DNA of 33,782 nt from Bacillota bacterium. GTDB taxonomy: Bacteria; Bacillota_I; Bacilli_A; Erysipelotrichales; Coprobacillaceae. Position numbers and translations under genes: made by a program. Where the stretch lies: positions 1 to 33,782 of the forward strand of contig JAUNWT010000017.1 of the NCBI GenBank assembly GCA_030540195.1. Direction: 5' to 3'. Below the pieces are notes generated by a model. It saw only the letters and a list, made by a program, of their open reading frames with translations, was not told where the DNA came from and made no database searches. Positions 2,975 through 21,192 of the stretch are shown one piece after another. Within the stretch, counting starts at the first letter, position 1. Every line of letters begins with the position of its first letter.

Positions 2975-3031
2975 AAATAGTACATTTTTCTAAAAGGACT
3001 TATTATGTATAAAATTGACAAATAGTCCTAT
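2975..3031 (+). promoter_or_regulatory. Putative operator of the secretion operon
   Basis: AAATAGTACATTTTT (2975-2989) is repeated exactly at 22837-22851 in front of the Xre regulator gene. AGGACT (2995-3000) and AGTCCT (3024-3029) form an inverted repeat around the -35 box. AGTCCTAT (3024-3031) also occurs at 22876-22883. The Xre protein is the obvious candidate ligand, by inference. Confidence 0.45.
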
Positions 3032-3043
3032 GTAAGGTAAAAT
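3015..3043 (+). promoter_or_regulatory. Promoter of secretion operon A
   Basis: A perfect TTGACA (3015-3020), 17-nt spacer and TAAAAT (3038-3043). A second TTGACA (3045-3050) lies exactly 30 nt further on but has no well-placed -10. The arrangement matches the Ig-protein promoter (TTGACT, 17 nt, TAAAAT). Confidence 0.65.
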
Positions 3044-3097: not shown

Positions 3098-4006
3098 ATG
3101 ATAGAAGAGGGGAAAGAACTATTTTTAGATAGTGTAGATTGTGGAAATAATTTTTTTTATGTGTTGAATGATGCTCAAATTGTTCCAACAGAATATAAGG
3201 TTTTACACAATCAAAAAGACAGTACATTTGTGAAATGTATGAATTTTAAATACAATGGGAAAGATAGTGTATTTTATTTTTTAAATGATTTAAAAAGCTT
3301 ATCAAACTTTTTCATTGATTGTGATGAAGTAAGTGCAATTACAGTTATTTCTAATTTATTGTTGAAAATTCAAAATATTTTAAGTAATGGCTTTTTATCA
3401 AGCTTACATATCGATTATTCATTAAATAGAATTTATGTACATCCTACAAGTTTGGATGTTAGTATTGTTTATTTACCTATTAATAAAAATATTTGTGAAG
3501 ATGATATTAAGTTTAAGGATTTACTTAGAAAAGATATTTTTTCGGGAATAAATCATTTTCAAACATCAAGAATGGCACAGTTAAAACTTTACTTACAAAA
3601 TAATAATATTGCTTTTGAAGATTTATATCAAAAAATCAATGAATTGAATGCGACAGGGATTACTAGAAATATTATTGATTATACAAATAATCCTGTTACT
3701 AGAAGTAGTCAACTTCATTTGGTGTCCATTCATCCAGAACAAGATATAGATATTTATATTAATAAGGATGTTTATAAATTAGGGAGAAATCCAGAAATTG
3801 TTGATTATGCAATTACATTTAATAGTGCTATTGGAAGATTACATTGTAAGATCGAAAAAAATAATGATGAATATTATGTATATGATTTAAATAGTGCAAA
3901 TGGTACATATGTTAATAATCAAAGAATTGTTGGACAACCATGTATTTTAAAAGATAATGATATTTTAAGATTAGCGAATCTTGATCTAAGAGTTGTTATA
4001 AAGTAG
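3098..4006 (+). CDS. FHA-domain protein with DUF6382-like N-terminus, head of operon A
   Basis: This 302-residue cytoplasmic protein has no membrane segment. Residues 1-190 resemble the DUF6382 region found N-terminal to FHA domains in Bacillota. Residues 226-300 are an FHA phosphothreonine-binding domain with LGR (228-230), GRLHC (246-250) and NSANGTYVNN (265-274). The conserved Arg and His of the phosphate site are present. A GGGAGG ribosome site precedes the ATG. It is the first gene of the secretion operon and probably recruits phosphorylated partners to it. It is a paralogue in layout of the protein at 17085. The N-terminal part may be a diverged pseudokinase fold like that of EssB/YukC, but that is only a suspicion. 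Confidence 0.8.
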   Translation: MIEEGKELFLDSVDCGNNFFYVLNDAQIVPTEYKVLHNQKDSTFVKCMNFKYNGKDSVFYFLNDLKSLSNFFIDCDEVSAITVISNLLLKIQNILSNGFLSSLHIDYSLNRIYVHPTSLDVSIVYLPINKNICEDDIKFKDLLRKDIFSGINHFQTSRMAQLKLYLQNNNIAFEDLYQKINELNATGITRNIIDYTNNPVTRSSQLHLVSIHPEQDIDIYINKDVYKLGRNPEIVDYAITFNSAIGRLHCKIEKNNDEYYVYDLNSANGTYVNNQRIVGQPCILKDNDILRLANLDLRVVIK

Positions 4007-4019
4007 GGAGGTATATGTT

Positions 4020-5060
4020 TTGAAACCAAGAATAATTATTGCTGATGAAAGCTATGACTATATTATGCCTCTCCAACTAAAATTCATGAATGAGTTTTTT
4101 GAAAAGATAGATATTGAGGTGATTACAGATTTAAACTATTTTGATGAATTATTTTCAATTCCTCAAAATATAGATATTTTGATAGTTTCAGAAAGCTTTT
4201 ATAATACACAAATTCAAAGACATAATATTAAACATATTTTTGTTATGAAAGAACAAAATGAAAAAGAACAAACAACAGAATTAAATATTAATAAGATATA
4301 TAAGTATACAAGTATTAAAGAAATCTTTAATGAAATTATAGGGAAAAGTGAAGATGTTTTAAATAATTGTGGAAATGATGCACGTACAACCCAAGTAATA
4401 GCTGTTACTTCAGCAAGTGGTGGTGTTGGAAAGACAACAGTTTCTTTAGGATTAGCATCTGCTTTAGCAAATAATTATAAAAAGGTACTTTATGTTAATG
4501 TAGATGAATTAAATACATTTCAATATAAATTAATTGATAAAAGTTTAATGGGTTCAACGAGTTTATATGTAAATCTTATGCAAAATCATAATATTTACGA
4601 AAATATAAAACAATATATAAAAAATGAAGATTTTGATTATGTACCAGCCTTTAAATCACCATTAGTATCATTAGGTTTAAATATAAATGTATATATTGAT
4701 TTAATTAAACAAGCTAACGAATCTACAAGTTATGATTTTATTATTGTTGATACAAATAGTGTTTTTGATGAAACAAAAACACAACTATTAGAAATTTCTG
4801 ATAGTGTTATTGTTTTAACAACCAAAAATAAAAATACATTACTTGCAACAAATGATCTTGTATCGCATATCAATGGTGTTACATCAGGAAAATATTTATT
4901 TATTAATAATAAAGCTGAAGAACATGCTCTAACAAATAGAGAACAATTACGTTTTTCAATAAATCAATCTATTGAATTTATAGATAATTGTGATGATTTA
5001 ACATGTAGATCACTTGGAAAACAAAAAGATATACAAAATATCGCTTATTTATTAATTTAG
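4020..5060 (+). CDS. MinD/CpaE-like P-loop ATPase
   Basis: This 346-residue cytoplasmic protein starts at TTG, with AGGGAGG (4005-4011) 8 nt upstream. The only nearby ATG (4015) is out of frame and meets a stop at once. Residues 1-115 look like a degenerate receiver-type domain, as in CpaE pilus-assembly proteins. A SIMIBI ATPase follows, with Walker A SGGVGKTT (133-140) and a Walker B-like YDFIIVDT. The signature lysine of deviant Walker A motifs (KGGVGKT) is Ser133 here, which questions MinD-style dimer-coupled hydrolysis. In this operon it may position or regulate the secretion machine, by analogy with CpaE. Confidence 0.8.
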   Translation: MKPRIIIADESYDYIMPLQLKFMNEFFEKIDIEVITDLNYFDELFSIPQNIDILIVSESFYNTQIQRHNIKHIFVMKEQNEKEQTTELNINKIYKYTSIKEIFNEIIGKSEDVLNNCGNDARTTQVIAVTSASGGVGKTTVSLGLASALANNYKKVLYVNVDELNTFQYKLIDKSLMGSTSLYVNLMQNHNIYENIKQYIKNEDFDYVPAFKSPLVSLGLNINVYIDLIKQANESTSYDFIIVDTNSVFDETKTQLLEISDSVIVLTTKNKNTLLATNDLVSHINGVTSGKYLFINNKAEEHALTNREQLRFSINQSIEFIDNCDDLTCRSLGKQKDIQNIAYLLI

Positions 5061-5081
5061 TTTTTAGAGGGGGAAAACTTC

Positions 5082-5333
5082 ATGAATAATACTGCAATTG
5101 TAATTTTTAATATAGTAAATAGAGGAATATCTGTTGATTTAGAAATTCCATTGGATATTACAACCAAAGAATTAGTTATGGGACTTAATGAAGCATATCA
5201 TTTAGATATTGATACATATGACATTAAACAATGTTATTTGAAAACAGAAAATCCCATAGCATTGCTTAGAGGAAATAAATTAATAAGTTATTATGGCATT
5301 CATAACGGAACTATTATTAATTTTACAAAATAA
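5082..5333 (+). CDS. esaB: EsaB/YukD-like ubiquitin-fold protein
   Basis: This 83-residue protein has the length and pattern of the YukD/EsaB family: alternating beta strands, a helix around KELVMGLNEAY and a final strand HNGTIINFTK. Family members are small ubiquitin-fold accessory or regulatory proteins of type VIIb secretion. A GAGGGGG ribosome site precedes the ATG. It sits directly before essC, the usual gene order. Confidence 0.82.
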   Translation: MNNTAIVIFNIVNRGISVDLEIPLDITTKELVMGLNEAYHLDIDTYDIKQCYLKTENPIALLRGNKLISYYGIHNGTIINFTK

Positions 5334-5352
5334 AGAAAGGTAATTAATACAG

Positions 5353-8300
5353 ATGAATTTACAATATAAAATAATTATATCTAGTAAAAATATATATAGA
5401 GAAATTGAATTACCTATGGATGCAAAGACATTTAAAGTAGGGACGACAAAAGAATGTGATTATCGGTTACCAAAAGATTTGTTTTTTGAAGAAATTAGGT
5501 TAGATTTAACAAATGACAATGGTCAATGGATTGTTATGGGATCAGATAATATTTATTTATCAATGAATGATAGTAGAAAATTATTTGTGGTTAAACTTTC
5601 TCATGGTGATTTACTCGTAGTTAAATATCAAAGCTCAAATAGTGAAATATTTAATGTTGAGTTTACTGTTGATTTTGATACGAAAGAAAGAAAATTTGAA
5701 AGACAGATAGATATTTTAAATAAAGAAAGAATTACAATTGGTTCAAAAGCAACGGATGACATTCAAATTAAAGGTGAATATATTGGAAACGATGAGATTA
5801 CGATTACAAAAAATAACGGTAATTTATTATTAACAATCAATACTTATACATATGGTGTTTATTTGAATGGTAATAAAGTAATTCAAAATGTTGAAATAAA
5901 AAATTGTGATTTTTTCTCTATTTCTGATTTTATGTTTTATTATAAAAATAATTGTTTATGGACTGAAGCAACAGATCAATGTCTTGTTAAAGGAATGAAT
6001 TATACAGATAAAATAAAAAATAACATTTATCCTAAATTTATTCGAAATACAAGAATTAAAACAAAAATAGATAATGAGAGTATTTCGGTATTGAATCCAA
6101 ATAGTATTCCTAAAAAACCAGAATTAAATTTAGTAACTTCCTTGATGCCAACACTAATGATGTTTGCTCTTGTTGTTGTGTTGAGAGGATTCATGAGTAA
6201 AGGCTCTGGAGGAACATATATTTTATTTTCTATTGCTTCGATGGGAATGGGTGTAGTTACTTCGATTGCTAATATTGTTTCTACACAGAAAAAATACAAA
6301 AGAGAATGCCGAGAACGTATAGATAAATATAATGATTATATTGCTAGAAAGAAAGAAAAAATTCAAAAAGAACGTCAAAAAGAATTAAATAGTTTACGTT
6401 CTACTTACTACAGTACGCAAGAAGATTTAGAACATTTACTTAATTATGATTCGTGTTTGTTTGATCGAATGGTAAATGATGATGATTTCTTAGATGTTTA
6501 TTTAGGTGTTGGTAGAAGAAAAGCAAATAAATTAATTGATTATAAAAAACAAGAAAAGTTAGAAACAGGTGATGATTTAACACAAATACCAAGTGATATT
6601 TCTAAAGATTTCAAATTCATTGAAAATGCACCAATTACAGTTTCATTAAAAGACGCAAATGCAATTGGCGTCATTGGACAAAATCAACAATTATATTCAC
6701 TATTAAAATGTTTTATTGTTGATTTAGTTAGTAGACATTACTATGGAGATTTGAATATTTACTTGTTTATTAACGAAGATATTCAAAAATATAAATGGGT
6801 AAGATTTATACCACATTTCCAACAAGGTGATTACATTAGAAATATTGTGTGTGATAATCAAAGTAAAAATACGGTGTTTGAAACCCTTTATAAAGAGTTG
6901 ATGTTAAGATCGGAAAATAAAGGTGTTCCAGGATACAATGTAGTATTAATGATGGATGATCAAGGAATTAAATCGCATCCAATATCAAGATTTATTGAAA
7001 ATGCATCTGAATTAAATACAACTTTTGTATTTTTTGAAAATAATAAACAAGATTTACCTTTACATTGTACACAAGTTATTCAACTTACTTCAGATGAACA
7101 AGGTGAATTGTTTAAGGCTTCTGATCGATATGAAGTTCAAAAATTTACATATCAACATATAGATGATGATATGCTTACTAAAGCAGCTCAAATTATTGCT
7201 CCGACATATTGTGAAGAAATAAGTTTAGCAGGAACATTAAAGAAAAATATTTCATTATATGAATTATTAGGAATATATTCAGCAGATGATATTGATTTAA
7301 AATCTAGATGGAATGAATCAAGAATATATGAAACAATGGCAGTTCCTCTTGGCGTAAATGCAAAAGATGAAATAGTAAATTTAAATTTACATGAAAAATT
7401 TCATGGTCCGCATGGGTTGGTTGCTGGTACAACAGGTTCTGGTAAATCTGAAATTTTACAAGCATATATATTATCAGCTGCTACTTTATTTCATCCATAT
7501 GAAATAGGATTTGTAATTATTGATTTTAAAGGTGGGGGGATGGTTAATCAATTTAGAAATCTACCACATCTTATAGGAGCTATTACAAATATTGATGGTA
7601 ATGAAATTGATAGATCATTGAAATCAATTAAAGCAGAACTTTTGAAGAGACAAAGTTGCTTTGCTAAAGCAGGAGTCAATCATATTGATAAATATATACA
7701 ACTATATAAACAAGGAAAAGTTAGTGTTCCATTGCCACATTTGGTTATGATTGTTGATGAATTTGCTGAGTTAAAATCTGAACATCCAGATTTTATGAAA
7801 GAATTAATTTCAGCAGCACGTATTGGACGAAGTCTAGGAGTACATTTGATTCTTGCAACACAAAAACCTAGTGGTGTTGTTGATGGACAAATATGGTCTA
7901 ACTCAAAATTTAAGTTATGTTTAAAAGTACAATCTAAGGAAGACAGTAATGAAGTTATTAAAACTCCGTTAGCTGCTGAAATTAAAGAACCAGGACGTGC
8001 ATATTTGCAAGTTGGAAATAATGAAATTTTTGAATTATTTCAATCAGCATATAGTGGAGCACCAGCAGTGGTAGATGCAAGTGAAATAGAAAAAGAATTT
8101 AAGATTAAAGAAGTAAATTTTGCTGGGATACGTTCTACAGTTTACGAAAAGAAAAAACAAAAGAAAAATTCATTGGTTCAAAAAACGCAATTAGAAGCAG
8201 TAGTAGATTATATTAATAATTATTGTAAACAACATAAAATTAAGAAATTACAAAATATTTGTTTACCTTCATTACCTAAGAAAATTGATTTTCCAAATAT

Positions 8301-9861
8301 TGTTAAATCAAGTAATGAAAATACTATTGTACACTTTGGTATTTATGATGATCCTGATCATCAAATTCAAGAAGAATATAATTTGAATCTTACAACATCA
8401 AATTATATGATTATAGGATCGGGTCAAACAGGAAAAACAAATATACTGCAATCAATTATTAGAAACATTTCTACTACATATTCTCCAGATGAAGTATCTA
8501 TGTATATTATTGATTTTGGTTCAATGATATTAAGAAACTTTAACGATTTAAAACATGTTGGAGGAGTTGTAACTTCAACAGAAGATGAAAAATTAAAGAA
8601 CTTATTTAGATTATTAAATGAAGAAGTTGCAAGACGAAAAGAAACTCTTTCAGAAATAGGAGTTAGTTCATTTGCAGCTTATAAAGAAGCTGGATTGAGA
8701 GATTTATCACAAATTGTGGTGTTAATTGATAATGTTACAGCATTAAAAGAATTATATTTACAAGATAATGATCAATTATTACCTCTATGCCGAGATGGAT
8801 TGGGCGTAGGTATTAGTTTTGTTTTAGCAAATGCTCAAACTGCTGGATTTGGTTATAGATATTTAAGTAATTTTGATGGTCGTATTTCTTTATATAGCAA
8901 CGATACTACTGAATATTCAATGCTATTTGAATCGAGTCGCTTAAGATTACCAAATATACCAGGTAGATCACTTGTAAAAATTGAAAAAGATGTTTATGAG
9001 TGTCAGGCATATTTATCTTTCGAAGGTGAAAAAGAGTTTGATAGAGTTAAAGAAATAAAATCATATGTTCATGAAAATAATCAAAAATGGAATGAATTTA
9101 AAAAGGTTAAAGTTATTCCAGAAATTCCAAAAACGTTATCTTATGATTATATTCAAGACAATTATGAATTACCAGAAAATGAACCATCGTTTGTACTTGG
9201 ATTGGATTATGCAACAGTGCAACCAGTATTCTTTAACTATTCAGATGTTAAATTTCTAGCTATGTCTGGTAGAAAAGATTCCTATAAAAATATATTTGCA
9301 AGAAATTTTGTTGCAAAAATAAAAGAAGAAAAAAATGCAGATATTTATATCTTTGATGATATTCAAGGTAGATGGGGAGAATTTGATCAAGAAATTGGAA
9401 CAGAATTTTATTCAACAAGTGAAGATACAATAGATAGTATTCTTGAAGAAATTCACCAAATTCTTGAAAGCCGCTTTAATACTTCAATTTATGAAGGTAT
9501 TCAAGCAGTGTATAAAGAACCACCAATTGTTTTGGTTATTGAAAATAATGAAGTAATTACAAATATTAGTAAAAACAATAACTTATTTGAAATGATGAAG
9601 GATATTTTAGAAAAATATCAAGAAATGGGAGCAATGGTTCTCTTTACCAATATTTCAAATGCACAAATTCCTTATAACGCAAGTGGACTTATGAAAATGA
9701 TAAAAGAAGATAGAAATTATTTAATATTTGATGATATTAGTAATATTAAGTTAGTGGATATTCCAGTTTCTTTAAGTAAAAAATATGCAAAACAACTTGG
9801 AAAAGATGATGCGTATTATATGGAAAATGGTGTATTAAGAAAAATTAAAATTTTTGAATAG
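5353..9861 (+). CDS. essC: EssC, FtsK/SpoIIIE-family motor ATPase of type VIIb secretion
   Basis: At 1502 residues it is close to the size of staphylococcal EssC. Two FHA-like domains lie at about 1-95 and 110-205. Two membrane spans follow at about 262-280 and 288-310. Three FtsK-like ATPase domains come next. The first has Walker A GTTGSGKS (692-699) and Walker B LVMIVDEF (about 796-803). The second has GSGQTGKT (1022-1029) with LIDN in place of the acidic pair. The third has a degenerate SGRKDS (about 1305-1310). This matches the family pattern, in which the first domain is the main motor and substrates such as EsxB-type proteins dock on a later domain. It is the core of the membrane channel. 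Confidence 0.95.
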   Translation: MNLQYKIIISSKNIYREIELPMDAKTFKVGTTKECDYRLPKDLFFEEIRLDLTNDNGQWIVMGSDNIYLSMNDSRKLFVVKLSHGDLLVVKYQSSNSEIFNVEFTVDFDTKERKFERQIDILNKERITIGSKATDDIQIKGEYIGNDEITITKNNGNLLLTINTYTYGVYLNGNKVIQNVEIKNCDFFSISDFMFYYKNNCLWTEATDQCLVKGMNYTDKIKNNIYPKFIRNTRIKTKIDNESISVLNPNSIPKKPELNLVTSLMPTLMMFALVVVLRGFMSKGSGGTYILFSIASMGMGVVTSIANIVSTQKKYKRECRERIDKYNDYIARKKEKIQKERQKELNSLRSTYYSTQEDLEHLLNYDSCLFDRMVNDDDFLDVYLGVGRRKANKLIDYKKQEKLETGDDLTQIPSDISKDFKFIENAPITVSLKDANAIGVIGQNQQLYSLLKCFIVDLVSRHYYGDLNIYLFINEDIQKYKWVRFIPHFQQGDYIRNIVCDNQSKNTVFETLYKELMLRSENKGVPGYNVVLMMDDQGIKSHPISRFIENASELNTTFVFFENNKQDLPLHCTQVIQLTSDEQGELFKASDRYEVQKFTYQHIDDDMLTKAAQIIAPTYCEEISLAGTLKKNISLYELLGIYSADDIDLKSRWNESRIYETMAVPLGVNAKDEIVNLNLHEKFHGPHGLVAGTTGSGKSEILQAYILSAATLFHPYEIGFVIIDFKGGGMVNQFRNLPHLIGAITNIDGNEIDRSLKSIKAELLKRQSCFAKAGVNHIDKYIQLYKQGKVSVPLPHLVMIVDEFAELKSEHPDFMKELISAARIGRSLGVHLILATQKPSGVVDGQIWSNSKFKLCLKVQSKEDSNEVIKTPLAAEIKEPGRAYLQVGNNEIFELFQSAYSGAPAVVDASEIEKEFKIKEVNFAGIRSTVYEKKKQKKNSLVQKTQLEAVVDYINNYCKQHKIKKLQNICLPSLPKKIDFPNIVKSSNENTIVHFGIYDDPDHQIQEEYNLNLTTSNYMIIGSGQTGKTNILQSIIRNISTTYSPDEVSMYIIDFGSMILRNFNDLKHVGGVVTSTEDEKLKNLFRLLNEEVARRKETLSEIGVSSFAAYKEAGLRDLSQIVVLIDNVTALKELYLQDNDQLLPLCRDGLGVGISFVLANAQTAGFGYRYLSNFDGRISLYSNDTTEYSMLFESSRLRLPNIPGRSLVKIEKDVYECQAYLSFEGEKEFDRVKEIKSYVHENNQKWNEFKKVKVIPEIPKTLSYDYIQDNYELPENEPSFVLGLDYATVQPVFFNYSDVKFLAMSGRKDSYKNIFARNFVAKIKEEKNADIYIFDDIQGRWGEFDQEIGTEFYSTSEDTIDSILEEIHQILESRFNTSIYEGIQAVYKEPPIVLVIENNEVITNISKNNNLFEMMKDILEKYQEMGAMVLFTNISNAQIPYNASGLMKMIKEDRNYLIFDDISNIKLVDIPVSLSKKYAKQLGKDDAYYMENGVLRKIKIFE

Positions 9862-9887
9862 GTAAAATCTGCAAAATGCAGTTTTAC
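9862..9887 (+). promoter_or_regulatory. Intercistronic hairpin before the WXG100 gene
   Basis: GTAAAA plus CTGCA (9862-9873, one bulged T) pairs with TGCAGTTTTAC (9877-9887) over a 3-nt loop, with no T run after it. It may be an RNA-processing or stability element separating essC from the substrate gene. Confidence 0.5.
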
Positions 9888-9915
9888 ATAAATTAAGAAC
9901 GGGAGGAAAATGAAA

Positions 9916-10209
9916 ATGGCAGTAAACTATGTCGATTATGATGTACTAACAACAGGAGTATCTGTTTATGCAAGTCAAGCTAGTGCATTAAATGATGTTT
10001 TAACAGCATTAAACAAAATGAATGGTGAATTAGAAGCGGGTTGGTCAAATGATACAGCTAGAGCTTTCATCGAAAGATTTAACACAGAACATGGACCAGC
10101 ATTACAACAAGCTGCTGAAGCTATTCAAAGTATTTCTGATTACATCAATAGTTATATGCAAGCTAGACAAGATGATGATGCTGCAGGTGCATCAGCTGTC
10201 AGAGGGTAA
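9916..10209 (+). CDS. esxA: WXG100 secreted protein (EsxA-like)
   Basis: This is a 97-residue helix-turn-helix hairpin protein of the WXG100 family, a substrate and component of type VII secretion. The turn motif is W43-S44-N45, so Asn replaces the Gly of WXG. The C-terminus is flexible (DDDAAGASAVRG). GGGAGG (9901-9906) lies 9 nt before the ATG at 9916 but only 3 nt before the in-frame ATG at 9910, so the later start is chosen. A hairpin precedes it and a strong terminator follows directly, suggesting that much of the transcription ends here. Confidence 0.88.
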   Translation: MAVNYVDYDVLTTGVSVYASQASALNDVLTALNKMNGELEAGWSNDTARAFIERFNTEHGPALQQAAEAIQSISDYINSYMQARQDDDAAGASAVRG

Positions 10210-10217
10210 TCCCTTTT

Positions 10218-10255
10218 ATAGAAATCTATGCCTTTTAGCATAGATTTCTATTTTT
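10218..10255 (+). terminator. Strong terminator after the WXG100 gene
   Basis: A perfect 14-bp stem (10218-10231 with 10238-10251), 6-nt loop and T-tract. It lies inside the operon, so the effector genes downstream depend on read-through or on an unseen promoter. Confidence 0.85.
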
Positions 10256-10270
10256 CAATGAGGTGAAAAT

Positions 10271-10726
10271 ATGGAAAAATGGTATTGTCAAAATAAAATA
10301 AATTATTACTCAGAAAGAGTAAATTACTATAGAACTAAAATCAGTAATATTCAAAAAGATATTAATGATTTTTCAAGAACAAGAGATAAATTGAACTCAG
10401 TAATTAGTAGCTTACAAACAGCAATAAGTAAAAGTCAAAGTGCTTTAGATGGTTCAAGTGCTATTTCTGCACTTAATCCTAAACTTGTAGAAAATGTAAG
10501 AAAAAAACTTAATTCGGCAGTAAATGATGCTGGATATCAAGAAGAATATAAGAAAGTAAAAGCTACTTATAATGCAATTGTTGAAAGAATTTCAGTAGAA
10601 AATACAAATCTTAAAACTGCAAATGACAATTATACAAACGCTGTCAATAATCTTAATTACTATAAAAATGAGATGAAGAAAATAGAAAAGGATGAAAAGG
10701 CAAAAGCAGCAGTATGCAAAGTCTAA
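10271..10726 (+). CDS. YwqH-like (DUF5082-type) coiled-coil secretion partner
   Basis: This 151-residue protein is almost entirely helical and coiled-coil, with a first helical stretch about 5-60 and a second about 90-145. It has no signal peptide. Size, composition and position match YwqH/DUF5082-type proteins encoded before type VII toxins. Such small helical proteins are thought to bind the toxin's N-terminus for targeting. A GAGGTG ribosome site precedes the ATG. The family assignment is by pattern only. Confidence 0.7.
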   Translation: MEKWYCQNKINYYSERVNYYRTKISNIQKDINDFSRTRDKLNSVISSLQTAISKSQSALDGSSAISALNPKLVENVRKKLNSAVNDAGYQEEYKKVKATYNAIVERISVENTNLKTANDNYTNAVNNLNYYKNEMKKIEKDEKAKAAVCKV

Positions 10727-10744
10727 TAAAGGGGTGAAGTATGT

Positions 10745-11029
10745 ATGGCACAAAATGTGAAGTTTGATGAAGATACATTAAAAACATATGGTGAAAAAAT
10801 CAGTAAACATTGTGAAGATATTCAAGGTATTATTACTAGTTATCAGAAGACATTAAGTGATATATTAAGTACTGCAATTATGCAAGGTGATACTGCAAAA
10901 TCATTAGCTGAGTTTAAAACTCACGTGGATACACTTAATAATTTGATTTCTCCAATTGGTAAACAATGTGAAGGATTAACTAAACATTATTTAAAAGATG
11001 TGGATAGTGCGGATGAATATTTATACTAA
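10745..11029 (+). CDS. WXG100-superfamily-like small helical protein 1
   Basis: A 94-residue, two-helix protein with no cleavable signal, 18 nt after the previous gene and preceded by GGGGTGA. It has the length of WXG100/DUF5344-type partners of LXG or RHS toxins but no WXG. A role as targeting chaperone for the RHS toxin is inferred from position and size. Confidence 0.7.
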   Translation: MAQNVKFDEDTLKTYGEKISKHCEDIQGIITSYQKTLSDILSTAIMQGDTAKSLAEFKTHVDTLNNLISPIGKQCEGLTKHYLKDVDSADEYLY

Positions 11030-11045
11030 AAGGAGATGAAAAAAT

Positions 11046-11336
11046 ATGGCAAAAACAAAAATTGATTTAGATCAATTAAATTCGTATTTAAAAGAGTTGA
11101 AGTCTTTATCATCAGAACATATAAACAATCAAGCGGAATTTAATAACATAAAGAAGATGAATTATGATTTAGAGATGTCAGGAGATGTTGTGAAACAACT
11201 TAATGAAATAGGAAATACGCTTTCGTTAATTGATGTTTCTCTTAATACATTGATAGAAAACACATATACGTATTTAGAAAATAGAAAGAAATCGTTTAAA
11301 AATCAAGAGACAAAGGCAATGAAAAAACTGAAATAA
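11046..11336 (+). CDS. WXG100-superfamily-like small helical protein 2
   Basis: A 96-residue helical protein, charged and lysine-rich at the C-terminus, with an AGGAG ribosome site and a 16-nt gap from the previous gene. No WXG motif is present. It is the last small gene before the toxin and is probably another toxin-binding partner. Confidence 0.68.
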   Translation: MAKTKIDLDQLNSYLKELKSLSSEHINNQAEFNNIKKMNYDLEMSGDVVKQLNEIGNTLSLIDVSLNTLIENTYTYLENRKKSFKNQETKAMKKLK

Positions 11337-11363
11337 TATTGATTTAAGGAGGGGAGGAATATT

Positions 11364-14300
11364 ATGTATAAGGATTTTTCAAAAACATCAGAAGATAAAC
11401 TTAAAGAATATGTAGATGAAGTTTCATCAACAGGATTTTGGGATAGTGTTGTAGATAAGGTTTCTGATTGCCTTAATACAGTAGGCTTTTTTCTAGGATT
11501 ATTTAATTCACAAAAAACAGTTGAAGGAATGGGTGATTATCAAAAAAAGATAATTGATACTAAAAATACAACAAAAAAGGAAATTTCAACAATTTTTTCT
11601 AATGTTAGAAAAGTTGATACAAATTATGGCTCAGGGTTATCACAAAATAATTCATTATTAATAAATGTCAATAATTATATTAAGGATTTAGCAGATTGTA
11701 TAGATCCTAATGGTGGTAATTTAGATTCAGCATATATGACAAAAGTACTTGTTCCAAGTAAAAAAAGAATAAAAGAAAGTCAAACAACTGTCCAAGACGA
11801 AATAGAAAATAAAATGTTGGGTACTGATCCAGATGCAGCATCATTAAGTGTTGATCCAGTTAATCTATCAACAGGAAACTATGTATATGATCATCAGGAT
11901 TTGTTAATAATGGGATCACCAGAAGTGATATTCCATCGTTATTATAATGCAAAAGATTCTAGAATTAGTTCTCTTGGAAAAGGATTTAAACATAATTATG
12001 ATATTGAATTAAGGGAAATTGGAAATAATTACAGTATTGTTTTAGAAGATGGTAGATGTATTCATTTTGAGTTAAAAGATGATGTATATGTAGGGAAAGA
12101 CACTGCGGAAGAACATCTTTTCAAAGTAAATGATGAATTTATTCTTAAAACGAGAGATGGAAATATTTATAAATTTAATTCTTTTAATAAAATATCTAGA
12201 TTAGAAGATGAAAATAAAATCGGTATTAGTTTTGAATACGATGAAAATGAAAATCTCATACGTGCAAAAGCTGATAATGAAAGTGAGTTACTATACACAT
12301 ATGTAAATGATTTACTTGTTGATGTAAAAGATCATACAGGTAGAAAAATACAGTTTATTTATAAAGATAATTTTCTTGAAAAAGCTATTATGCCAAATGG
12401 AAGAGAAATTAAATATTCATATGACAGTAATGGAAGAATTATTGATTTGCCAATAGATGGTAATGAAAAACTAGTAGTAAATGTTTACGATGATAAAGAT
12501 CGAGTTATTGAACAACAATTCATAGATGGAAGTTCGATGTCTTTTGAATATGACGATGAAAATAAGACAGTTACTCAAATAGAAAGAAATGGAGTAAAAA
12601 CTGTTTATGTTCATGATGATAAAAAAAGAAATACAGAAATTATCTATGAAGATGGAACAACAGAAAAGTTTGTTTATAATGAAAAAAATCAATGTATTAA
12701 AAAAACAGATAGATTGGGTCATAGCGAAAGATATGCTTATGATAACAAGGGAAATGTTGTACAAAAAATAGATCCTCTTAGAAGAAGATTTAATATGACA
12801 TATGATAATCATAATAATTTATTAACACTTTCTTTAAATGGAAAGAGTATGATTAAAAATCGTTATGATAGTAAAGGAAATCTAATTTATACAGAAAATG
12901 CAGCTGGAATTGCAGAAATGTACAAGGTAGATGATTATGGAAGAGTAATTTCTACGATACATTCTGATAATAGTGAAACAAATATAATATATGATGAAAG
13001 AGGAAATGTAAGCAAAGTAGAAAATCCAGATGGTGGAGTTATTAAATATGAATATAATGATCTTAATCAGGTAATTAAATTAACAGATCCTAATGGGAAT
13101 AGTACTTATTTTGATTATGATGTTAATGGAAATGTTATAAAAACAATAAATGCTTTAGGATATGAAACAAATTATACGTATAATATTAATGGATTGTTAG
13201 AGTCTACATCATACGCAAATGGTACAGTAGAAAAAAGAACATACAATAAAATAAATCAATTAGAAGAAGTGATTGATGAACAAGGATATAGTACAAAATA
13301 TATTTATGATAGTATGTGGAATGTTTCAAAAATATTGTTACCAAATGGTTCAGTAGAAGAATATTTATATGATAAAGATAATCATTTATCAACGATTAAG
13401 ATTCCTGGTGGAACTACGATACATACAGTATATGATGCTAATGGTAATATTATAGAAGAGTGTACTAATGATGATAAAAAGATATTTAAGTACGATGCAT
13501 TAGGAAATACTATTAGTGTAAAACAGGGAGACGAGTATTCGACTGTCTCTTATGATATGTTTGGAAATGTAGCGGAAGTAAAACGTGTAAATGGAGAATT
13601 TGTAAAAAAAGAATATGATGAATTCGGTAGATTAGAACGGGAATATGATAATCTAGGTGCATTAAGAATTTATAGATATGATTCTACTGGAACTCTTTCT
13701 GAAGAAGAAGATGAATTAGGAAATATTACAAAATATAATTATTATCCAGGAAAAAGAATAAAAAGTATTATTTATCCAAATGGAGAAATTGATTCCTTTA
13801 TTTATGATTTAAATGGAAATGTTGTTGAACATAAAGATAAAAAGGGGAATGTAATTGAACTTCGATATGATAGTTTAAATAGAAATACAGAAACGTATCT
13901 TAATGGCATTTTACAAGAAAGTTTGGAATACAATGAAGTTAATGAAATTGTTAAGCGTGTTGATGCTTTAAACAATGCAACATATTTTACTTATTCATCA
14001 CGAGGTGAAGTATTATCAGTTACTGATCCAAATGGAACAAAAATGAAATATGACTATAACTCTATGGGTGATGTTTTAAAAGAAGTTATTACAGGACCTA
14101 CAGGTGAAGTGAAATTTGACAATACCTATGAATATAATGAATTTGGACAATTAGTTTGCATAAAAGATATACAAGGTTATAGTACTAAATATCAATATAA
14201 TAATCGTGGAGAGCTTATTGAAACAATTGATAAAGAAGGATACCATGTTTCGTATGGATATAATCAAAGAGGAAATATTGATAATTTGAGATATCAAGAT

Positions 14301-16460
14301 GGAAGAGAAGTTTCTTTTAAATATAATGAAAAAAATGTTTTAAAAGAAATTATAGATTGGAATGGTAAAACATCATTCGTAACAGATACAGAAGGAAGAG
14401 TAACATCAGTTACATATCCTGATGGAAAGAATGTTGGATATGTTTATAATTCATTTGGCGAAATATCTTCCATGAAGTATCCAAACGGTAAAGAAATTTA
14501 TTATAATTATGATAAGTTGAAAAGAATTTCATCTATTACAAATGGGGATAGTCAAATTATATATAAGTATAATGAAGATAATGAAGTAGTTAAAAGAATA
14601 TATCCAAATGGAACATCAACGGAATATGAATACAATAGGTGTGGTTTTCCAACTGTAATTAAAAATATAGATAAGGAAGGTATATTAGATCAATACGAAA
14701 TAGGATATGATGCTTTAGGAAGAAAGAACAAACTAAATAGATGGAGAAGAAATGATGCTGAATATAGTGGTTTGTTTGAATATTCTTATGGGAATACCGG
14801 GTTCTTAGAAGAGGTAAAGAAAAATGGGTCAGTACTTCGTAAATATGAATATGATTCATTTGGAAATAGAACAAGAAAATTTGATAAAAACGGCGAAGAA
14901 ATATACCATTACAATAATCTTAATCAACTTGTAAGCAAGTCTTTAGGAACAAATCAAGAAACATATGAGTATGATAAAAGAGGAAATTTAATAGAAGTAA
15001 AATCTAATGGTCAAATGAAATATCAGTATTGTTATGATACAACAAATAGATTATCAAAATCATTTAATAGTAATGGAGAAAAATCTACATATGCATATAA
15101 TGGTTTAGGATATAGAATAGGTCAAACTAAATACCAAAAAAGTGGAACTAAGCAAATTAATTATGTTGTAAATATGTTAAGACTTCATGATAATCTTTTA
15201 GAAAAAGATGAGAATGGAGAAGTACAAACATATATTTGGTCAGGATTTAATCCAGTAGCTATTAATCATAAACAAAGTGATTATTATTGTTATCATGATG
15301 AAATGGGAAGTATTAGTGATGTTATTTCATTTGATGGAAATTTGAAAGAAAAATTTGGATTTGATGAATTTGGTAACGAACTCTATGAAGTAGATAATTC
15401 TATAAATCCTTTTGGATATACAGGATATTTAAGAAATTATGATATGGGAACAAGCTTTGCCCAAGCTAGGGAATATATAAGTGATATTGGAAGATTTGCA
15501 GGTCGTGATATCGTTAAGGGTATGGCACCATATAATATTTCATACAATGAATATCTATATTGTCGAAATGACCCTAATAGCTATGAAGATAGAAATGGAC
15601 AAATTATTATTCTTACCGCAGTCATCGCTGGTGCTGCGATTGGTGGTATAGCTAGTGCTGGGCTAAATTATGTTGGTCAAAAAATTAAAGTTGCTCAAGG
15701 AAAACAAGACGAAATAAAGAAGGGAGAAATTGTAGGAAGTTTTGTAAGTGGTGCAATTATTGGTGGCGTTTCTGGTCTAACTGCAGGAGTACCAACAGGC
15801 ATTGCTGCAGTTGGAAACATTATTGCAAGTGGAGCTGGAGGCGCTGCGGAAAGCTTTATTAAACAAAAGATAGATAATGGTAAAGTTGATCTCGATGAAG
15901 TAGGTAAGGACGCAACTGTAGGAGCTGTGACAGGAGCTTTAGGAGAAGGATTGAAATTTGGAGGAAAATGGATAGGAGGAAAAATATCTAATAAAGTATC
16001 TAGCAGTGAACTCTTGTCTAAACAATACGAAAAAATAAAGAAAATTATTCCTGGAAAAGGTGATGTAAATAAATTTGATGCAAAAAATTCACTTAAAGAA
16101 ATAGAAAATACAGGTACATTGATAGAAAATCAAAAAACGTATATTGCAACTACTGAATTAAAACCGTGGGAAACAGGACATCATAGAGACAAGGTATTAA
16201 AAAAATTGATAGCAAAGGAAGAAAATCTTAGAATGGCTTTTAAACATGATTATGTTGTAAATCTCCTTGAACAAAAGAAAAAAGAGGCTTTCAAAAAAAT
16301 ACTTAAAACTTTAGTTGCATACAAAACACCGAAAGAAGTTATAAATGATTTTATTGAAAATGCCATAAAAGAAGGACCAGAAGAAGCATTGAATAAATTA
16401 TCCTCAGCTTTAAATAGGCCAAAATGGAAATTGCAAGGAAAATGTCCTATTTATGCTTAA
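11364..16460 (+). CDS. RHS-repeat polymorphic toxin, type VII secretion effector
   Basis: This is a 1698-residue protein. Residues 1-150 are helical without a signal peptide, as expected of a type VII targeting region. A DUF6531-like entry segment starts at DPVNLSTGNYVY (164). Residues of about 240-1330 are RHS/YD repeats (YDxxGN pattern), which form a shell round the toxin. The RHS core (YTGYLRNYDMG from 1352, ISDIGRFAGRD, then YLYCRNDPN) marks the autoproteolysis region. A Gly/Ala-rich segment (about 1414-1545) and a unique tail (about 1546-1698) follow. The tail contains GHHRD (1605-1609) and ends with CPIYA. I cannot name its activity. The His pair could belong to an HNH-type nuclease, but other metal ligands are not evident. 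The start has a GGGGAGG site. Confidence 0.88.
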   Translation: MYKDFSKTSEDKLKEYVDEVSSTGFWDSVVDKVSDCLNTVGFFLGLFNSQKTVEGMGDYQKKIIDTKNTTKKEISTIFSNVRKVDTNYGSGLSQNNSLLINVNNYIKDLADCIDPNGGNLDSAYMTKVLVPSKKRIKESQTTVQDEIENKMLGTDPDAASLSVDPVNLSTGNYVYDHQDLLIMGSPEVIFHRYYNAKDSRISSLGKGFKHNYDIELREIGNNYSIVLEDGRCIHFELKDDVYVGKDTAEEHLFKVNDEFILKTRDGNIYKFNSFNKISRLEDENKIGISFEYDENENLIRAKADNESELLYTYVNDLLVDVKDHTGRKIQFIYKDNFLEKAIMPNGREIKYSYDSNGRIIDLPIDGNEKLVVNVYDDKDRVIEQQFIDGSSMSFEYDDENKTVTQIERNGVKTVYVHDDKKRNTEIIYEDGTTEKFVYNEKNQCIKKTDRLGHSERYAYDNKGNVVQKIDPLRRRFNMTYDNHNNLLTLSLNGKSMIKNRYDSKGNLIYTENAAGIAEMYKVDDYGRVISTIHSDNSETNIIYDERGNVSKVENPDGGVIKYEYNDLNQVIKLTDPNGNSTYFDYDVNGNVIKTINALGYETNYTYNINGLLESTSYANGTVEKRTYNKINQLEEVIDEQGYSTKYIYDSMWNVSKILLPNGSVEEYLYDKDNHLSTIKIPGGTTIHTVYDANGNIIEECTNDDKKIFKYDALGNTISVKQGDEYSTVSYDMFGNVAEVKRVNGEFVKKEYDEFGRLEREYDNLGALRIYRYDSTGTLSEEEDELGNITKYNYYPGKRIKSIIYPNGEIDSFIYDLNGNVVEHKDKKGNVIELRYDSLNRNTETYLNGILQESLEYNEVNEIVKRVDALNNATYFTYSSRGEVLSVTDPNGTKMKYDYNSMGDVLKEVITGPTGEVKFDNTYEYNEFGQLVCIKDIQGYSTKYQYNNRGELIETIDKEGYHVSYGYNQRGNIDNLRYQDGREVSFKYNEKNVLKEIIDWNGKTSFVTDTEGRVTSVTYPDGKNVGYVYNSFGEISSMKYPNGKEIYYNYDKLKRISSITNGDSQIIYKYNEDNEVVKRIYPNGTSTEYEYNRCGFPTVIKNIDKEGILDQYEIGYDALGRKNKLNRWRRNDAEYSGLFEYSYGNTGFLEEVKKNGSVLRKYEYDSFGNRTRKFDKNGEEIYHYNNLNQLVSKSLGTNQETYEYDKRGNLIEVKSNGQMKYQYCYDTTNRLSKSFNSNGEKSTYAYNGLGYRIGQTKYQKSGTKQINYVVNMLRLHDNLLEKDENGEVQTYIWSGFNPVAINHKQSDYYCYHDEMGSISDVISFDGNLKEKFGFDEFGNELYEVDNSINPFGYTGYLRNYDMGTSFAQAREYISDIGRFAGRDIVKGMAPYNISYNEYLYCRNDPNSYEDRNGQIIILTAVIAGAAIGGIASAGLNYVGQKIKVAQGKQDEIKKGEIVGSFVSGAIIGGVSGLTAGVPTGIAAVGNIIASGAGGAAESFIKQKIDNGKVDLDEVGKDATVGAVTGALGEGLKFGGKWIGGKISNKVSSSELLSKQYEKIKKIIPGKGDVNKFDAKNSLKEIENTGTLIENQKTYIATTELKPWETGHHRDKVLKKLIAKEENLRMAFKHDYVVNLLEQKKKEAFKKILKTLVAYKTPKEVINDFIENAIKEGPEEALNKLSSALNRPKWKLQGKCPIYA

Positions 16461-16487
16461 AAAATCTATTTGATAAGCAATATAGTT

Positions 16488-16515
16488 TTGAAAAAATGGG
16501 AACTTGAAATAATTT
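16488..16515 (+). promoter_or_regulatory. Possible separate promoter of the immunity gene
   Basis: TTGAAA (16488-16493) and TAATTT (16510-16515) at 16-nt spacing, in the 94-nt gap after the toxin gene. The match is weak. Confidence 0.28.
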
Positions 16516-16554
16516 ATAAAAAATAATAGAATTTAATAAATTGGAGAAAATATA

Positions 16555-16977
16555 ATGAAAAAAAATGAAAATATTGTAGTATTAGAATATAATTTGCGTT
16601 TAAAAATATTCTACTTCATTTGTGTATTATTTGTAGCGGCTTTTACAGTGATATGGGGACATATGTTAAGAAGAATATTCTTTATTGTAGTAATACTTGA
16701 TGTCCTTGCTCTAGGAGCGTTTATTTATTTACAAACATCTCGCGTTATTATAGATAAAAGAGTAGATTATGTTGTTCAATGCATATTTTGGAAAAAAAAG
16801 AAAGTGTATTATAAAGATATGGCTTATGTAAAAGTAACTGAGGATGATAACACTGTCTATTTAGTTGTATATTCAATTGATGATAAAAAATTGCTTAAGG
16901 TTAATATGGGCGGATATACAAATACTGAGTATTTTTCACAAATTATTACTTCAATGGGGCTTGAACTAGTTGATTAA
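16555..16977 (+). CDS. Two-span membrane protein, candidate immunity protein
   Basis: A 140-residue protein with two membrane helices (about 15-35 and 41-60) and a C-terminal beta-rich domain (about 63-140) reminiscent of bacterial PH-like domains that follow paired helices. It lies directly downstream of the RHS toxin, the usual position of the cognate immunity gene. If that is right, a membrane-bound antidote hints that the toxin acts at or crosses the membrane. An alternative is an unrelated membrane protein carried with the operon. A GGAG ribosome site precedes it. Confidence 0.6.
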   Translation: MKKNENIVVLEYNLRLKIFYFICVLFVAAFTVIWGHMLRRIFFIVVILDVLALGAFIYLQTSRVIIDKRVDYVVQCIFWKKKKVYYKDMAYVKVTEDDNTVYLVVYSIDDKKLLKVNMGGYTNTEYFSQIITSMGLELVD

Positions 16978-16986
16978 AAGAAGTAG

Positions 16987-17040
16987 AAAAAAGGATTATA
17001 TAGTACTAAGTAAATAATAGTGACTATAAATCCTTTTTTT
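16987..17040 (+). terminator. Terminator of operon A
   Basis: AAAAAAGGATTATATAGT (16987-17004) pairs with ACTATAAATCCTTTTTTT (17023-17040), with one bulge and an 18-nt loop. The right arm ends as the T-tract. The loop and right arm carry the -35 region of the next operon. Confidence 0.8.
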
Positions 17041-17048
17041 GTTATAAT
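17020..17048 (+). promoter_or_regulatory. Promoter of signalling operon B
   Basis: A perfect TATAAT (17043-17048) with GTGACT (17020-17025) at 17 nt, 36 nt before the start codon. The -35 lies in the terminator hairpin of the preceding operon. Confidence 0.55.
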
Positions 17049-17084: not shown

Positions 17085-18176
17085 ATGGGGAAGATTGTTA
17101 TAAAGAGAAGTTCGAAGAAAAATATAATTACTAATAAATTGTTTAAAGAAGAAGTGATTGATGAATATCAATTAGAATCTATTAAACAAGATGATATGAA
17201 TGTTTTTTATTCAGTAGATAAGGCAAAGATGTCAAAGAAATTAAAAGTTGTTGTACAAGAAGGACAAGATTTAAATAATGTTATTCGAAATATGAGTAAT
17301 GTTAGATATTTTGTTGATTTAATTAATCGAATGATTTTTATTATTGATTATTGTAAACAACTGAATCAAAGTACGGATAATTTAGAAGTACATAGAGATT
17401 ATATTTTTGTTGGAGAATATATAAATGAAATGAAATTTATTTATTGGCCAATCAAGAATCCAAAGCCACAAAATAATATTTGTAATTTGTTTAGAGGAAT
17501 TGCAATGGCTTTAAATCCTGCAGAAAGTATTATTTATAAACAATATGTTGATTTCTTTGATGATATTCAATATTTTGACTACAACAAATTTAAAAATATG
17601 ATTAAAGATTTTAAGAATATGGATGATTATCTAAATGCTCGTGAAATAAAAGAAGAACCTGTAAATCATGTAAATACAGATAATAATGGGGGAAGATCTC
17701 TTGATTTTTCTAGAGTACAAGAAACAACACAACAAGATGATATTATTGCTCATGGATCTAAAAGATTAAATACTCAACAAGATACAACATTATTGAATGC
17801 ACCAAATAATAATCAAGCAACAACAGTTTTAGGTGCTAATGATGGAACAACTGTATTAGGAGCACAAGATTTTAATCAAATGAATTATCCTTATTTAATA
17901 AGAACAATGAATAATGAAAGAATTGATATTAATAAGCCTATTTTTAGGATTGGAAAAGAAAAACAATACGTTGATTATTTTATTTCTTCTAATCCAGCAA
18001 TTAGTAGAAGTCATTGTGATATTGTTGAAAAAAATAATCATTATTATGTAATAGATCGTAATTCAACAAATCATACCTATGTAAATGATGTTGTTATTAC
18101 TCCAGAAAATGAAGTTGAATTATTTTCTGGAACAAAATTAAAACTCGCTAATGAAGAATTTATTTTCTATATGTAA
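17085..18176 (+). CDS. Second DUF6382-like/FHA protein with TTVL linker motifs
   Basis: The start is ATG 17085, with GAGG (17075-17078) at 6 nt. The in-frame TTG at 17073 overlaps that site and is rejected. The protein has 363 residues. Residues 1-190 are a DUF6382-like region matching the operon A paralogue in layout. A disordered Asn/Gln-rich linker (about 190-268) carries TTLL (234-237), TTVL (246-249) and TTVL (255-258). The C-terminal FHA domain has RIGK (288-291), SRSH (307-310) and NSTNHTYVN (326-334), with His in place of the usual Gly. A threonine with a hydrophobic residue at +3 is a classic FHA ligand once phosphorylated, so the linker may be a kinase target that binds FHA domains. 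It heads the operon with the phosphatase and kinase. Confidence 0.8.
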   Translation: MGKIVIKRSSKKNIITNKLFKEEVIDEYQLESIKQDDMNVFYSVDKAKMSKKLKVVVQEGQDLNNVIRNMSNVRYFVDLINRMIFIIDYCKQLNQSTDNLEVHRDYIFVGEYINEMKFIYWPIKNPKPQNNICNLFRGIAMALNPAESIIYKQYVDFFDDIQYFDYNKFKNMIKDFKNMDDYLNAREIKEEPVNHVNTDNNGGRSLDFSRVQETTQQDDIIAHGSKRLNTQQDTTLLNAPNNNQATTVLGANDGTTVLGAQDFNQMNYPYLIRTMNNERIDINKPIFRIGKEKQYVDYFISSNPAISRSHCDIVEKNNHYYVIDRNSTNHTYVNDVVITPENEVELFSGTKLKLANEEFIFYM

Positions 18177-18187
18177 GGAGAAAAAAG

Positions 18188-18964
18188 ATGATGAATTATG
18201 TATCAACATATTATACGGATATTGGAATAAAAAAGAGTACAAATCAAGATAGTGTTCTTATAAAAAAAGCCAAGACAAGCATTGGAAATATTGCCATGGC
18301 AGTTATCTGCGATGGAATGGGTGGTCTTGCTAAAGGAGAAGTTGCCAGTGCGAGTGTTATTCAAATGCTTAATGAATGGTTTAATAATGATTTGAAACAA
18401 ATGATGCAAAATACACATTTTTCTTTATCTCTTGTATCTTCTAAAATAGGCGATTTGATTAGAGAAAAAAATACAAGAATCCTTCAATATGGAAAAGAAA
18501 ATAATATTAATTTAGGGACAACTATTACAATGCTATTTATCTATGAAAAAGAATATATGTTTTTTCATGTAGGAGATTCTAGATTATATAAATTATCTAA
18601 TACTATACAACAATTAACACATGATCATACACTTGTACAAAAAGAAGTAAATGAAGGAAAACTAACAAAGGAACAGGCAGAGGTTGATCCAAGAAAAAGT
18701 ATTTTATTACAATGTGTTGGAGCTTCTAAAGTTGTGACACCACAAATTGGATATGGAAGTATAGAAAACAAGGATTTATTTCTATTATGTTCAGATGGGT
18801 TTAGACATTGTATTTCAGAAAACGAAATTTATACAAGTTTAATTCAAGGAAATAATGCACAAGAATTAAAGAATAGTTTGTATCAACTCACAAATAAAAA
18901 TATGCAATTAGGTGAAGAAGATAATATTACATCAATTGCAGTTAAAGTCTTTATGGAGGATTAG
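18188..18964 (+). CDS. PP2C-family Ser/Thr protein phosphatase
   Basis: A 258-residue cytoplasmic, metal-dependent phosphatase of the PrpC/Stp1 type. Motifs in order are TNQD (18-21), CDGMGG (41-46), a GTTIT segment, HVGDSRLYKL, LTHDHTL, LCSDGF and EDNITS near the end. The aspartates that bind the two metal ions are all present. It should reverse phosphorylation by the kinase encoded next, whose gene starts 1 nt after its stop. The ATG is preceded by AAGGAG with 7-nt spacing. Confidence 0.93.
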   Translation: MMNYVSTYYTDIGIKKSTNQDSVLIKKAKTSIGNIAMAVICDGMGGLAKGEVASASVIQMLNEWFNNDLKQMMQNTHFSLSLVSSKIGDLIREKNTRILQYGKENNINLGTTITMLFIYEKEYMFFHVGDSRLYKLSNTIQQLTHDHTLVQKEVNEGKLTKEQAEVDPRKSILLQCVGASKVVTPQIGYGSIENKDLFLLCSDGFRHCISENEIYTSLIQGNNAQELKNSLYQLTNKNMQLGEEDNITSIAVKVFMED

Positions 18965-18965
18965 T

Positions 18966-20666
18966 ATGGCTCAAATAGGTGATGTTATTGATGGAAAATA
19001 TAAAATCTTAACACAAATAGGTGCAGGTGGAATGTCTAAAGTCTATCTAGCCATGGATAGTCGTTTAAATAAACAATGGGCAGTAAAAGAATTAGAAAAA
19101 CGTGCGCATGATAAAAATAATGATGTTGTTATTCAAAGTGCAATTGCCGAAGCAGGGATGATGAAAAAATTAGATCATCCTAACTTACCAAGAATTGTTG
19201 ATATCATTGATGAAGAAAATGTAATCTATGTTGTTATGGATTATATTGAAGGTGAACCTTTAGATAAAATATTGGAAGAATACGGTGCTCAACCTCAAGA
19301 TTTAGTTATTGAATGGGCAAAACAATTATGTGAAGTGCTTATGTATTTACATAATCGCAAACCACCTATAATTTATCGTGATATGAAGCCAGGGAATGTT
19401 ATGTTAAAACCTGACGGAAATTTAAAATTGATTGACTTTGGAATTGCTAGAGAATATAAGGAACAAAACTTAGCAGATACACAATGTTTAGGAACAAGAG
19501 GATATGCTGCTCCTGAACAATATGGTGGAAAAGGACAAACTGATCAAAGAACAGATATTTTCTGTTTAGGAGTTACTATTTATCATTTAGTAACAGGGAA
19601 GAACCCAGCTGAACCACCTTATGAAATCTATCCAATTAGAAAATGGAATCCAGCGTTATCAAGTGGTTTAGAAAGAATTGTAGATAAATGTACACAATTA
19701 AACCCTGAAGATAGATATCAATCATGTGAAGAATTACTTTATGCTTTGAATCATTATAATGAAATTGATGAAGAATACCGTAATACACAAAAAAATAAAG
19801 TTAAGAAATTTGCGACATCAGCAATTATTTCTCTTATTTGTTTTGTAATTAGTTTGGGAACATTTATTGGAAAGAATGTTATCAATGGAAATGATTACGA
19901 TGAAAATATTTCATTAGCTGAAAAATCAAGTGATCAAGATTCAAAAGAAAATTATTATGAAAAAGCAATAGAAGTTTATCCTGATAGAACAGGTGGGTAT
20001 CTCGGTTTAGTCAATACATATAAAAGTGATAATAGTTTTGATGAAAACGAAGAAGCTCGTTTCAAAAAAATTATTAATACAAATTTAGCTACAGTAAAAA
20101 AAGCAGATGATTATGGTGAACTTGCTTTTGAAATTGGAAAGCTTTATTGGTATTACTATGATTATGGTAATAATACAGATAATACAACACGTAGTAAAAG
20201 TGCTGCACAATGGTTTAAAGATGCAAAATCTTCTTTAGAAGAAGGTACTGATGAACAAAAGATGGCAGAAGTGTATGAAGCTATTGGTAATTTTAATAAT
20301 ACAGTTACTATTAATATAGAAGAAGCAAATGATAAAGGGATGTATAAGCCTTATTTTAAAAACTTATCTCAACTTATTAAAATGATGAAAAATAGTAAAG
20401 AACAAGAAAAAGTGAAATTAGAATTGTATAATCTAACTATTTCCGCAATTGAAAATTATGCACGAAAATTTAAGAATGATGGTATAAGTCAAGCAAAATT
20501 ACAAGCGTTATATGATGATGTTGTTAAAGGAGTCAATAAGATTCAAACGACAACAGATGATAACACAGATAAAATTTACTTATTGAAAAATGAAATTCTT
20601 GGAAAAATTCCAGGATGTCAAGATTCTATAACAAATGCTTATAGACCATCTATGGAGGAAGAATAA
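18966..20666 (+). CDS. Membrane Ser/Thr protein kinase with helical extracytoplasmic domain
   Basis: The start is ATG 18966, 5 nt after GGAGGA; longer frames lack a ribosome site. The protein has 566 residues. Residues 1-265 are a complete Hanks-type kinase: glycine loop GAGGMSKVYLA (19-29), K41, YRD (137-139) with N144, DFG (157-159) and APE (182-184). One membrane span lies at 282-302. The remaining 264 residues outside are helical and TPR-like, and no PASTA repeats are seen, unlike PrkC/PknB. The layout of kinase fold, single span and helical outer domain is that of EssB/YukC, whose kinase fold is inactive. It probably phosphorylates the TT[VIL]L proteins of this operon. Confidence 0.9.
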   Translation: MAQIGDVIDGKYKILTQIGAGGMSKVYLAMDSRLNKQWAVKELEKRAHDKNNDVVIQSAIAEAGMMKKLDHPNLPRIVDIIDEENVIYVVMDYIEGEPLDKILEEYGAQPQDLVIEWAKQLCEVLMYLHNRKPPIIYRDMKPGNVMLKPDGNLKLIDFGIAREYKEQNLADTQCLGTRGYAAPEQYGGKGQTDQRTDIFCLGVTIYHLVTGKNPAEPPYEIYPIRKWNPALSSGLERIVDKCTQLNPEDRYQSCEELLYALNHYNEIDEEYRNTQKNKVKKFATSAIISLICFVISLGTFIGKNVINGNDYDENISLAEKSSDQDSKENYYEKAIEVYPDRTGGYLGLVNTYKSDNSFDENEEARFKKIINTNLATVKKADDYGELAFEIGKLYWYYYDYGNNTDNTTRSKSAAQWFKDAKSSLEEGTDEQKMAEVYEAIGNFNNTVTINIEEANDKGMYKPYFKNLSQLIKMMKNSKEQEKVKLELYNLTISAIENYARKFKNDGISQAKLQALYDDVVKGVNKIQTTTDDNTDKIYLLKNEILGKIPGCQDSITNAYRPSMEEE

Positions 20667-20667
20667 T

Positions 20668-21141: not shown

Positions 21142-21192
21142 GGAATAGATAAAAATTACAAATAGCTTAAAATAAAAAACGGGAGAGTAAGA

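Follow-up and report, generated by a model that had tools for sequence, protein, structure and literature searches.

Background

T7SS variants with a signalling module are the closest described counterparts of the locus studied here. In the sections drawn on here, Garrett et al. (2024, PMC11217815) report for T7SSd, T7SSe and T7SSj a large Ig-like protein with a Sec signal and a C-terminal membrane helix (TsxI), which is predicted to be a core component; T7SSe and T7SSj are also described there as having a kinase, a phosphatase and an FHA component. The sole regulator named in these sections for T7SS variants is the LytR-like TsiN of T7SSi, and shared regulation of T7SS and Tad loci is left open there for T7SSg and T7SSh. 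Our literature search, the coverage of which is incomplete, found no dedicated Xre regulator reported for kinase-bearing T7SS variants or for T7SS in Bacillota.

We analysed a stretch of 33,782 nucleotides from a Bacillota bacterium (GCA_030540195.1, contig JAUNWT010000017.1), called the window below. From short boxes shared between promoters, it had been predicted that an Xre protein encoded here controls a regulon in which a secretion apparatus and an Ig-domain surface protein are expressed together.

The secretion locus and its probable regulator

The genes concerned are the following:

3098-16977, plus strand: operon A, encoding an FHA protein, a ParA-like ATPase, YukD, EssC, WXG100, small helical proteins, an RHS protein and a small membrane protein
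17085-22311, plus strand: operon B, encoding an FHA protein, a PPM phosphatase, a kinase, a small protein and a TPR protein
22473-22817, minus strand: xre, encoding an HTH regulator of 114 aa (HTH_3, E 7.6e-14; orthologues 38-44% identical)
23050-28161, plus strand: gene of a TsxI-like Ig-domain protein of 1703 aa (Big_2, E 5.4e-17), with homologues in Tad and T7SS loci

The EssC-type ATPase and the WXG100 protein expected of T7SSe and T7SSj are both present, with EssC matching TIGR03928 at 1146.6 bits and the WXG100 protein matching PF06013 at 30.2 bits (cut-off 27.3). In the signalling module the kinase is clear (Pkinase, 176.9 bits) and an FHA domain was found, together with a weak DUF6382 match under its cut-off; the phosphatase of operon B was assigned by homology to genes of Thomasclavelia and of a second T7SS-bearing genome (G067). 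In the large surface protein Ig domains were detected, and a signal peptide and a C-terminal helix were read by eye from the translation. Because it fits the published description of TsxI, to which we liken it by that description, it is probably one of the machine's own parts and not an independent surface protein, and its co-regulation with the secretion operon would be sensible. The T7SS locus looks accessory, since searches of five congeneric genomes (G001-G005) found no homologue of the first FHA gene (3098-4006). At 11364-16977 an RHS protein is preceded by small helical partners and followed by a small membrane protein, which makes it a candidate T7SS substrate with a possible immunity protein.

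The xre gene starts at 22817 and is divergent from the Ig gene. Its product scores 51.9 bits against PF01381 (gathering threshold 23) and thus has a Cro/C1-type HTH; the structure model shows the HTH with confidence over residues 1-60 and, at residues 89-113, a long C-terminal helix that may serve dimerisation. Orthologues, in which the helix 3 residues NxLGKIER are kept, occur in T. cocleata DSM 1551, T. saccharogumia DSM 17460, one Thomasclavelia MAG and members of Oscillospiraceae/Clostridia. A profile search of 392 genomes across the phylum returned, besides the protein of the window, distant Xre proteins only.

A putative operator conserved beside xre in related genomes

A box with a consensus near AGGACTTATAGTCAA is present beside xre in all 14 intergenic regions that adjoin a full-length orthologous xre (three from Thomasclavelia and 11 from Oscillospiraceae/Clostridia). 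In every one of them it overlaps a TTGAC-type -35 element of the divergent gene, although the divergent genes themselves differ, and a second AGGA box usually follows 20-22 bp further on. The Thomasclavelia xre genes face a divergently oriented Tad operon (TadZ, an ATPase, two T2SSF proteins and a TadE-like protein), which contains FHA, phosphatase and kinase genes as well. The orthologues in Clostridia lie divergently to unrelated genes, whose starts often resemble those of lipoproteins or secreted proteins (L075, L077, L078, L083, L086, L087). A partial Xre homologue at a contig end (G042) has no box there. As a control, the regions upstream of 25 distant Xre genes contain no such box, their top matrix score being 9.7; the three Thomasclavelia orthologues, which belong to the training set, score 19.5-23.0.

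The core of this operator, GACTnnnAGTC, is an imperfect palindrome, so binding by a dimer would be expected. Its GTCAA portion equals a -35 element read on the other strand, and consequently the AGGACTTATA part alone is specific. The 16-column matrix was trained on the 14 boxes only, with the window excluded, and for the same reason a version of 11 columns, without GTCAA, was scored as well.

Operator matches at the promoters of the window

The strings and coordinates on which the original prediction was built (AAATAGTACATTTTT, TAGTACAT, AGTCCTAT, GGAC and both promoters) are all correct, and we confirm that the promoters of operon A and of the Ig gene read TTGAC[AT]-17-TAAAAT, with GGAC ending 15 nt upstream of TTGAC in both. 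What had been missed is that the GGAC box and the AGTCCTAT box (3024-3031 and 22876-22883) are one motif on opposite strands, and that there is a third candidate promoter, that of operon B. The relevant sites are:

2994-3009, plus strand: operator-like box AAGGACTTATTATGTA upstream of the operon A promoter; rank 12 with 16 columns, rank 2 without the -35 columns
3015-3030, minus strand: operator match TAGGACTATTTGTCAA, which covers the operon A -35 and spacer; rank 1, score 20.6 of 24.4
3015-3043, plus strand: operon A promoter, TTGACA-17-TAAAAT, 11 of 12 consensus bases
17020-17035, minus strand: operator match AAGGATTTATAGTCAC over the -35 before operon B, inside a terminator-like hairpin; rank 2, E 0.084
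17020-17048, plus strand: candidate operon B promoter, GTGACT-17-TATAAT, 10 of 12 consensus bases
22867-22882, minus strand: degenerate box TAGGACTTCTAGTTTC upstream of xre; score 5.8, p 5e-4, rank 15 without the -35 columns
22886-22901, minus strand: another degenerate box before xre, AAGGATTATCAAGCAC, at a distance of 19 bp from TAGGACTTCTAGTTTC; score 4.5, rank 14 without the -35 columns
22943-22958, plus strand: operator-like box AGGGACATATAGTACA, located before the Ig promoter; rank 4, p 5.5e-5, E 3.7, rank 7 without the -35 columns
22964-22992, plus strand: Ig gene promoter, TTGACT-17-TAAAAT, 10 of 12 consensus bases

Tested with a matrix that comes entirely from other genomes, the motif is strongly non-random in the window: on both strands, the 16-column matrix ranks operon A first, operon B second and the Ig promoter fourth. 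With the 11 columns, the promoter regions take ranks 2, 3, 5, 7, 14 and 15 of 67,544 positions and hold all of the top seven intergenic matches; column-permuted matrices equal the number of top-10 matches there in at most 0.3% of trials. No score equal to that of TAGGACTATTTGTCAA arose in 4 million simulated bases. The boxes of the Ig gene and of xre are both degenerate, and AGGGACATATAGTACA, which joins the GGAC and TAGTACAT of the original prediction into one site, is not significant by itself (E ~3.7).

Between operons A and B, a strong hairpin followed by a T-run (16986-17040; dG -17.7 kcal/mol, z -4.8) shares part of its sequence with a good -35/-10 pair and with the operator match of rank 2. 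Because the operon B box is contained in this hairpin, it could represent the operon A terminator, whether or not it also works as an operator. The whole likeness could be attributed to the -35 sequence of promoters, to AT-rich chance matches and to an intrinsic terminator at operon B, without any operator, and the weak inverted repeat formed by the operon A boxes (z -2.0) as well as the weakly unusual 15-mer AAATAGTACATTTTT fit such an explanation. We nevertheless regard it as improbable: the matrix from other genomes puts these promoters on top even when the -35 columns are removed, and a terminator of operon A makes no sense at 3015-3030, where the box lies inside the promoter of that very operon.

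Genome-wide statements are based on pattern searches. The combined -35-plus-box pattern KTGACWWWWARTCCTW, the KTGAC of which was written after the sites had been seen, occurs twice in the genome, both times in the window. Among the matches to one-mismatch box variants or to ATAGTACATWWT that were examined in the same genome, most are intragenic and none lies at a convincing regulated promoter. When one mismatch is allowed, the box pattern is found once and twice in two Thomasclavelia genomes (G031 and G040, respectively), exclusively at the Xre-adjacent Tad locus; a third (G025) has one match at the Tad locus and three elsewhere.

The shared 15-letter word

The 15-mer that had been stressed as a link between the promoters is found at two places:

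2975-2989, plus strand: AAATAGTACATTTTT, copy 1, exact match; at most a half-site, of doubtful role
22837-22851, plus strand: AAATAGTACATTTTT, copy 2, exact match; between the xre start and the xre boxes

It could be a binding site of its own, recognised by Xre or by a different factor, through which operon A and xre are linked, because its only two copies in the 2.57-Mb assembly lie at these promoters, with none for the reversed control. Several observations make this improbable: in simulations that match the composition of these AT-rich intergenic regions, the longest shared word reaches at least 15 letters in 1.25% of intergenic pairs, and some pair in the window shares a 15-letter word by chance in 9.5%, so that chance sharing amounts to about 1-10%; the word was not found at the promoters of relatives; and the left half-site of the operator is missing beside it. 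With up to three mismatches it is as frequent as expected by chance (15, against 14.1 in shuffled sequence).

The shorter TAGTACAT lies at 2978, 22840 and 22952 on the plus strand, and on the minus strand at 9941-9948 inside the WXG100 gene. Its four copies in the window compare with 1.84 expected and are reached by 11 of 100 shuffles, and with 54 copies in the genome it is not specific; a cluster of it on contig C129, where neither the box nor an xre was seen nearby, was dismissed as coincidence. At 22952 it reads better as the right half of a single operator, GGGACATATAGTACA. A genome-wide count had been proposed along with the original prediction, an evenly scattered motif being taken to speak against it: TAGTACAT alone is scattered in this way, and the full operator is not. 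As the regulatory box, AAATAGTACATTTTT and TAGTACAT are not supported, and the 15-mer is the weakest part of the original observation.

Proposed regulation

Xre probably switches the promoters jointly, because the box that adjoins xre in relatives sits on them and almost nowhere else in the genome. We think it fairly probable, judging from sequence, that the 114-aa Xre is a local and locus-specific switch, namely a repressor of the T7SS promoters. As a dimer, it would bind an operator near AGGACTTATAGTCAA at all three promoters: over the -35 and spacer at operon A, over the -35 at operon B, and immediately before the -35 at the Ig gene. The coverage of -35 and spacer suggests steric repression, in which bound Xre would block RNA polymerase, and the degenerate boxes upstream of the xre start suggest autoregulation. 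A signal would then relieve repression, so that the apparatus would come on together with the Ig component and the kinase/phosphatase/FHA module; by its neighbourhood, this module is a candidate for bringing about that relief.

The same operators could also be used by an Xre that activates, or that both represses and activates, with the boxes at 2994-3009 and 22943-22958 helping to recruit RNA polymerase. These boxes end 5 nt before the -35, the usual position of an activator site. However, at operon A, and likewise in all relatives, the best operator lies over the -35 and spacer, a placement usual for repressors, and activation seems to us unlikely, if somewhat less so than an absence of any operator.

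The original prediction is partly supported: a putative Xre-linked operator is common to the secretion operon and the Ig gene and is conserved beside xre across genera; the boxes first proposed are replaced, and operon B (17020-17048) is added. The predicted operator would account for a joint switching of apparatus, signalling module and Ig component, and it offers a direct and cheap test.

Comparison with known systems

With T7SSe, T7SSf and T7SSj, as far as the cited sections of PMC11217815 describe them, the locus shares an EssC-type ATPase with an N-terminal FHA region, WXG100, a YukD-like protein, a kinase, a PPM phosphatase (here by homology), an FHA protein, a large Ig-like protein that resembles TsxI by description, and an RHS candidate substrate. 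To these it adds a ParA-like ATPase, which resembles the TsfV described there for T7SSf, and the adjacent xre.

The nearest solved folds to Xre are those of ClgR, DdrO, C proteins, P22 c2 and SinR (fold matches 17-34% identical). It resembles these divergent autoregulatory repressors (the C proteins being those of restriction-modification systems) in its Cro/C1-type HTH, its small size and the presence of a box both at its own promoter and at the divergent one, but it differs from them in its operator and in its linkage to T7SS or Tad genes. Its best NCBIfam match is the RstR family NF041951, at 50.8 bits and thus under the curated cut-off of 80.

A second T7SS example was sought on a cut contig of 19 kb (G067:C40), which has an FHA1 homologue (~38%) as well as Ig and EssC homologues, but on which neither an Xre orthologue nor a box above threshold was found. 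In one Thomasclavelia genome (G040), an inverted box pair, AAGGACTTATAAT...ATTATAAGTCCTT, lies directly before the phosphatase gene (L031:4816-4831) and reaches the ribosome site, which hints at an internal control point.

The Tad-pilus operon of Thomasclavelia is alike in its Xre (39-42% identical), in the operator over the -35 of the divergent operon and in the FHA/PPM/kinase/Ig module. It is unlike the window in its machine, which is a Tad pilus, EssC not being found there. The Ig gene has its own promoter in the window, whereas in T. saccharogumia, the only genome in which this stretch is visible, the homologue lies in the same gene run, after the Tad operon genes. The FHA-phosphatase-kinase module and the Ig protein are common to T7SS loci (the window and G067) and to Tad-pilus loci (Thomasclavelia), with kinases 44-76% identical (L031, L033, L035, L036, L063). 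It seems to us an evenly balanced question whether one Xre family and one operator control two surface machines, T7SS in the window and the Tad pilus in Thomasclavelia, with the same kinase/phosphatase/FHA/Ig module attached to both, in what would be a portable regulatory cassette. If so, one regulator would link T7SS and Tad loci, and the cassette would give a tangible example of the regulation common to T7SS and Tad that the cited sections of PMC11217815 leave open for T7SSg and T7SSh.
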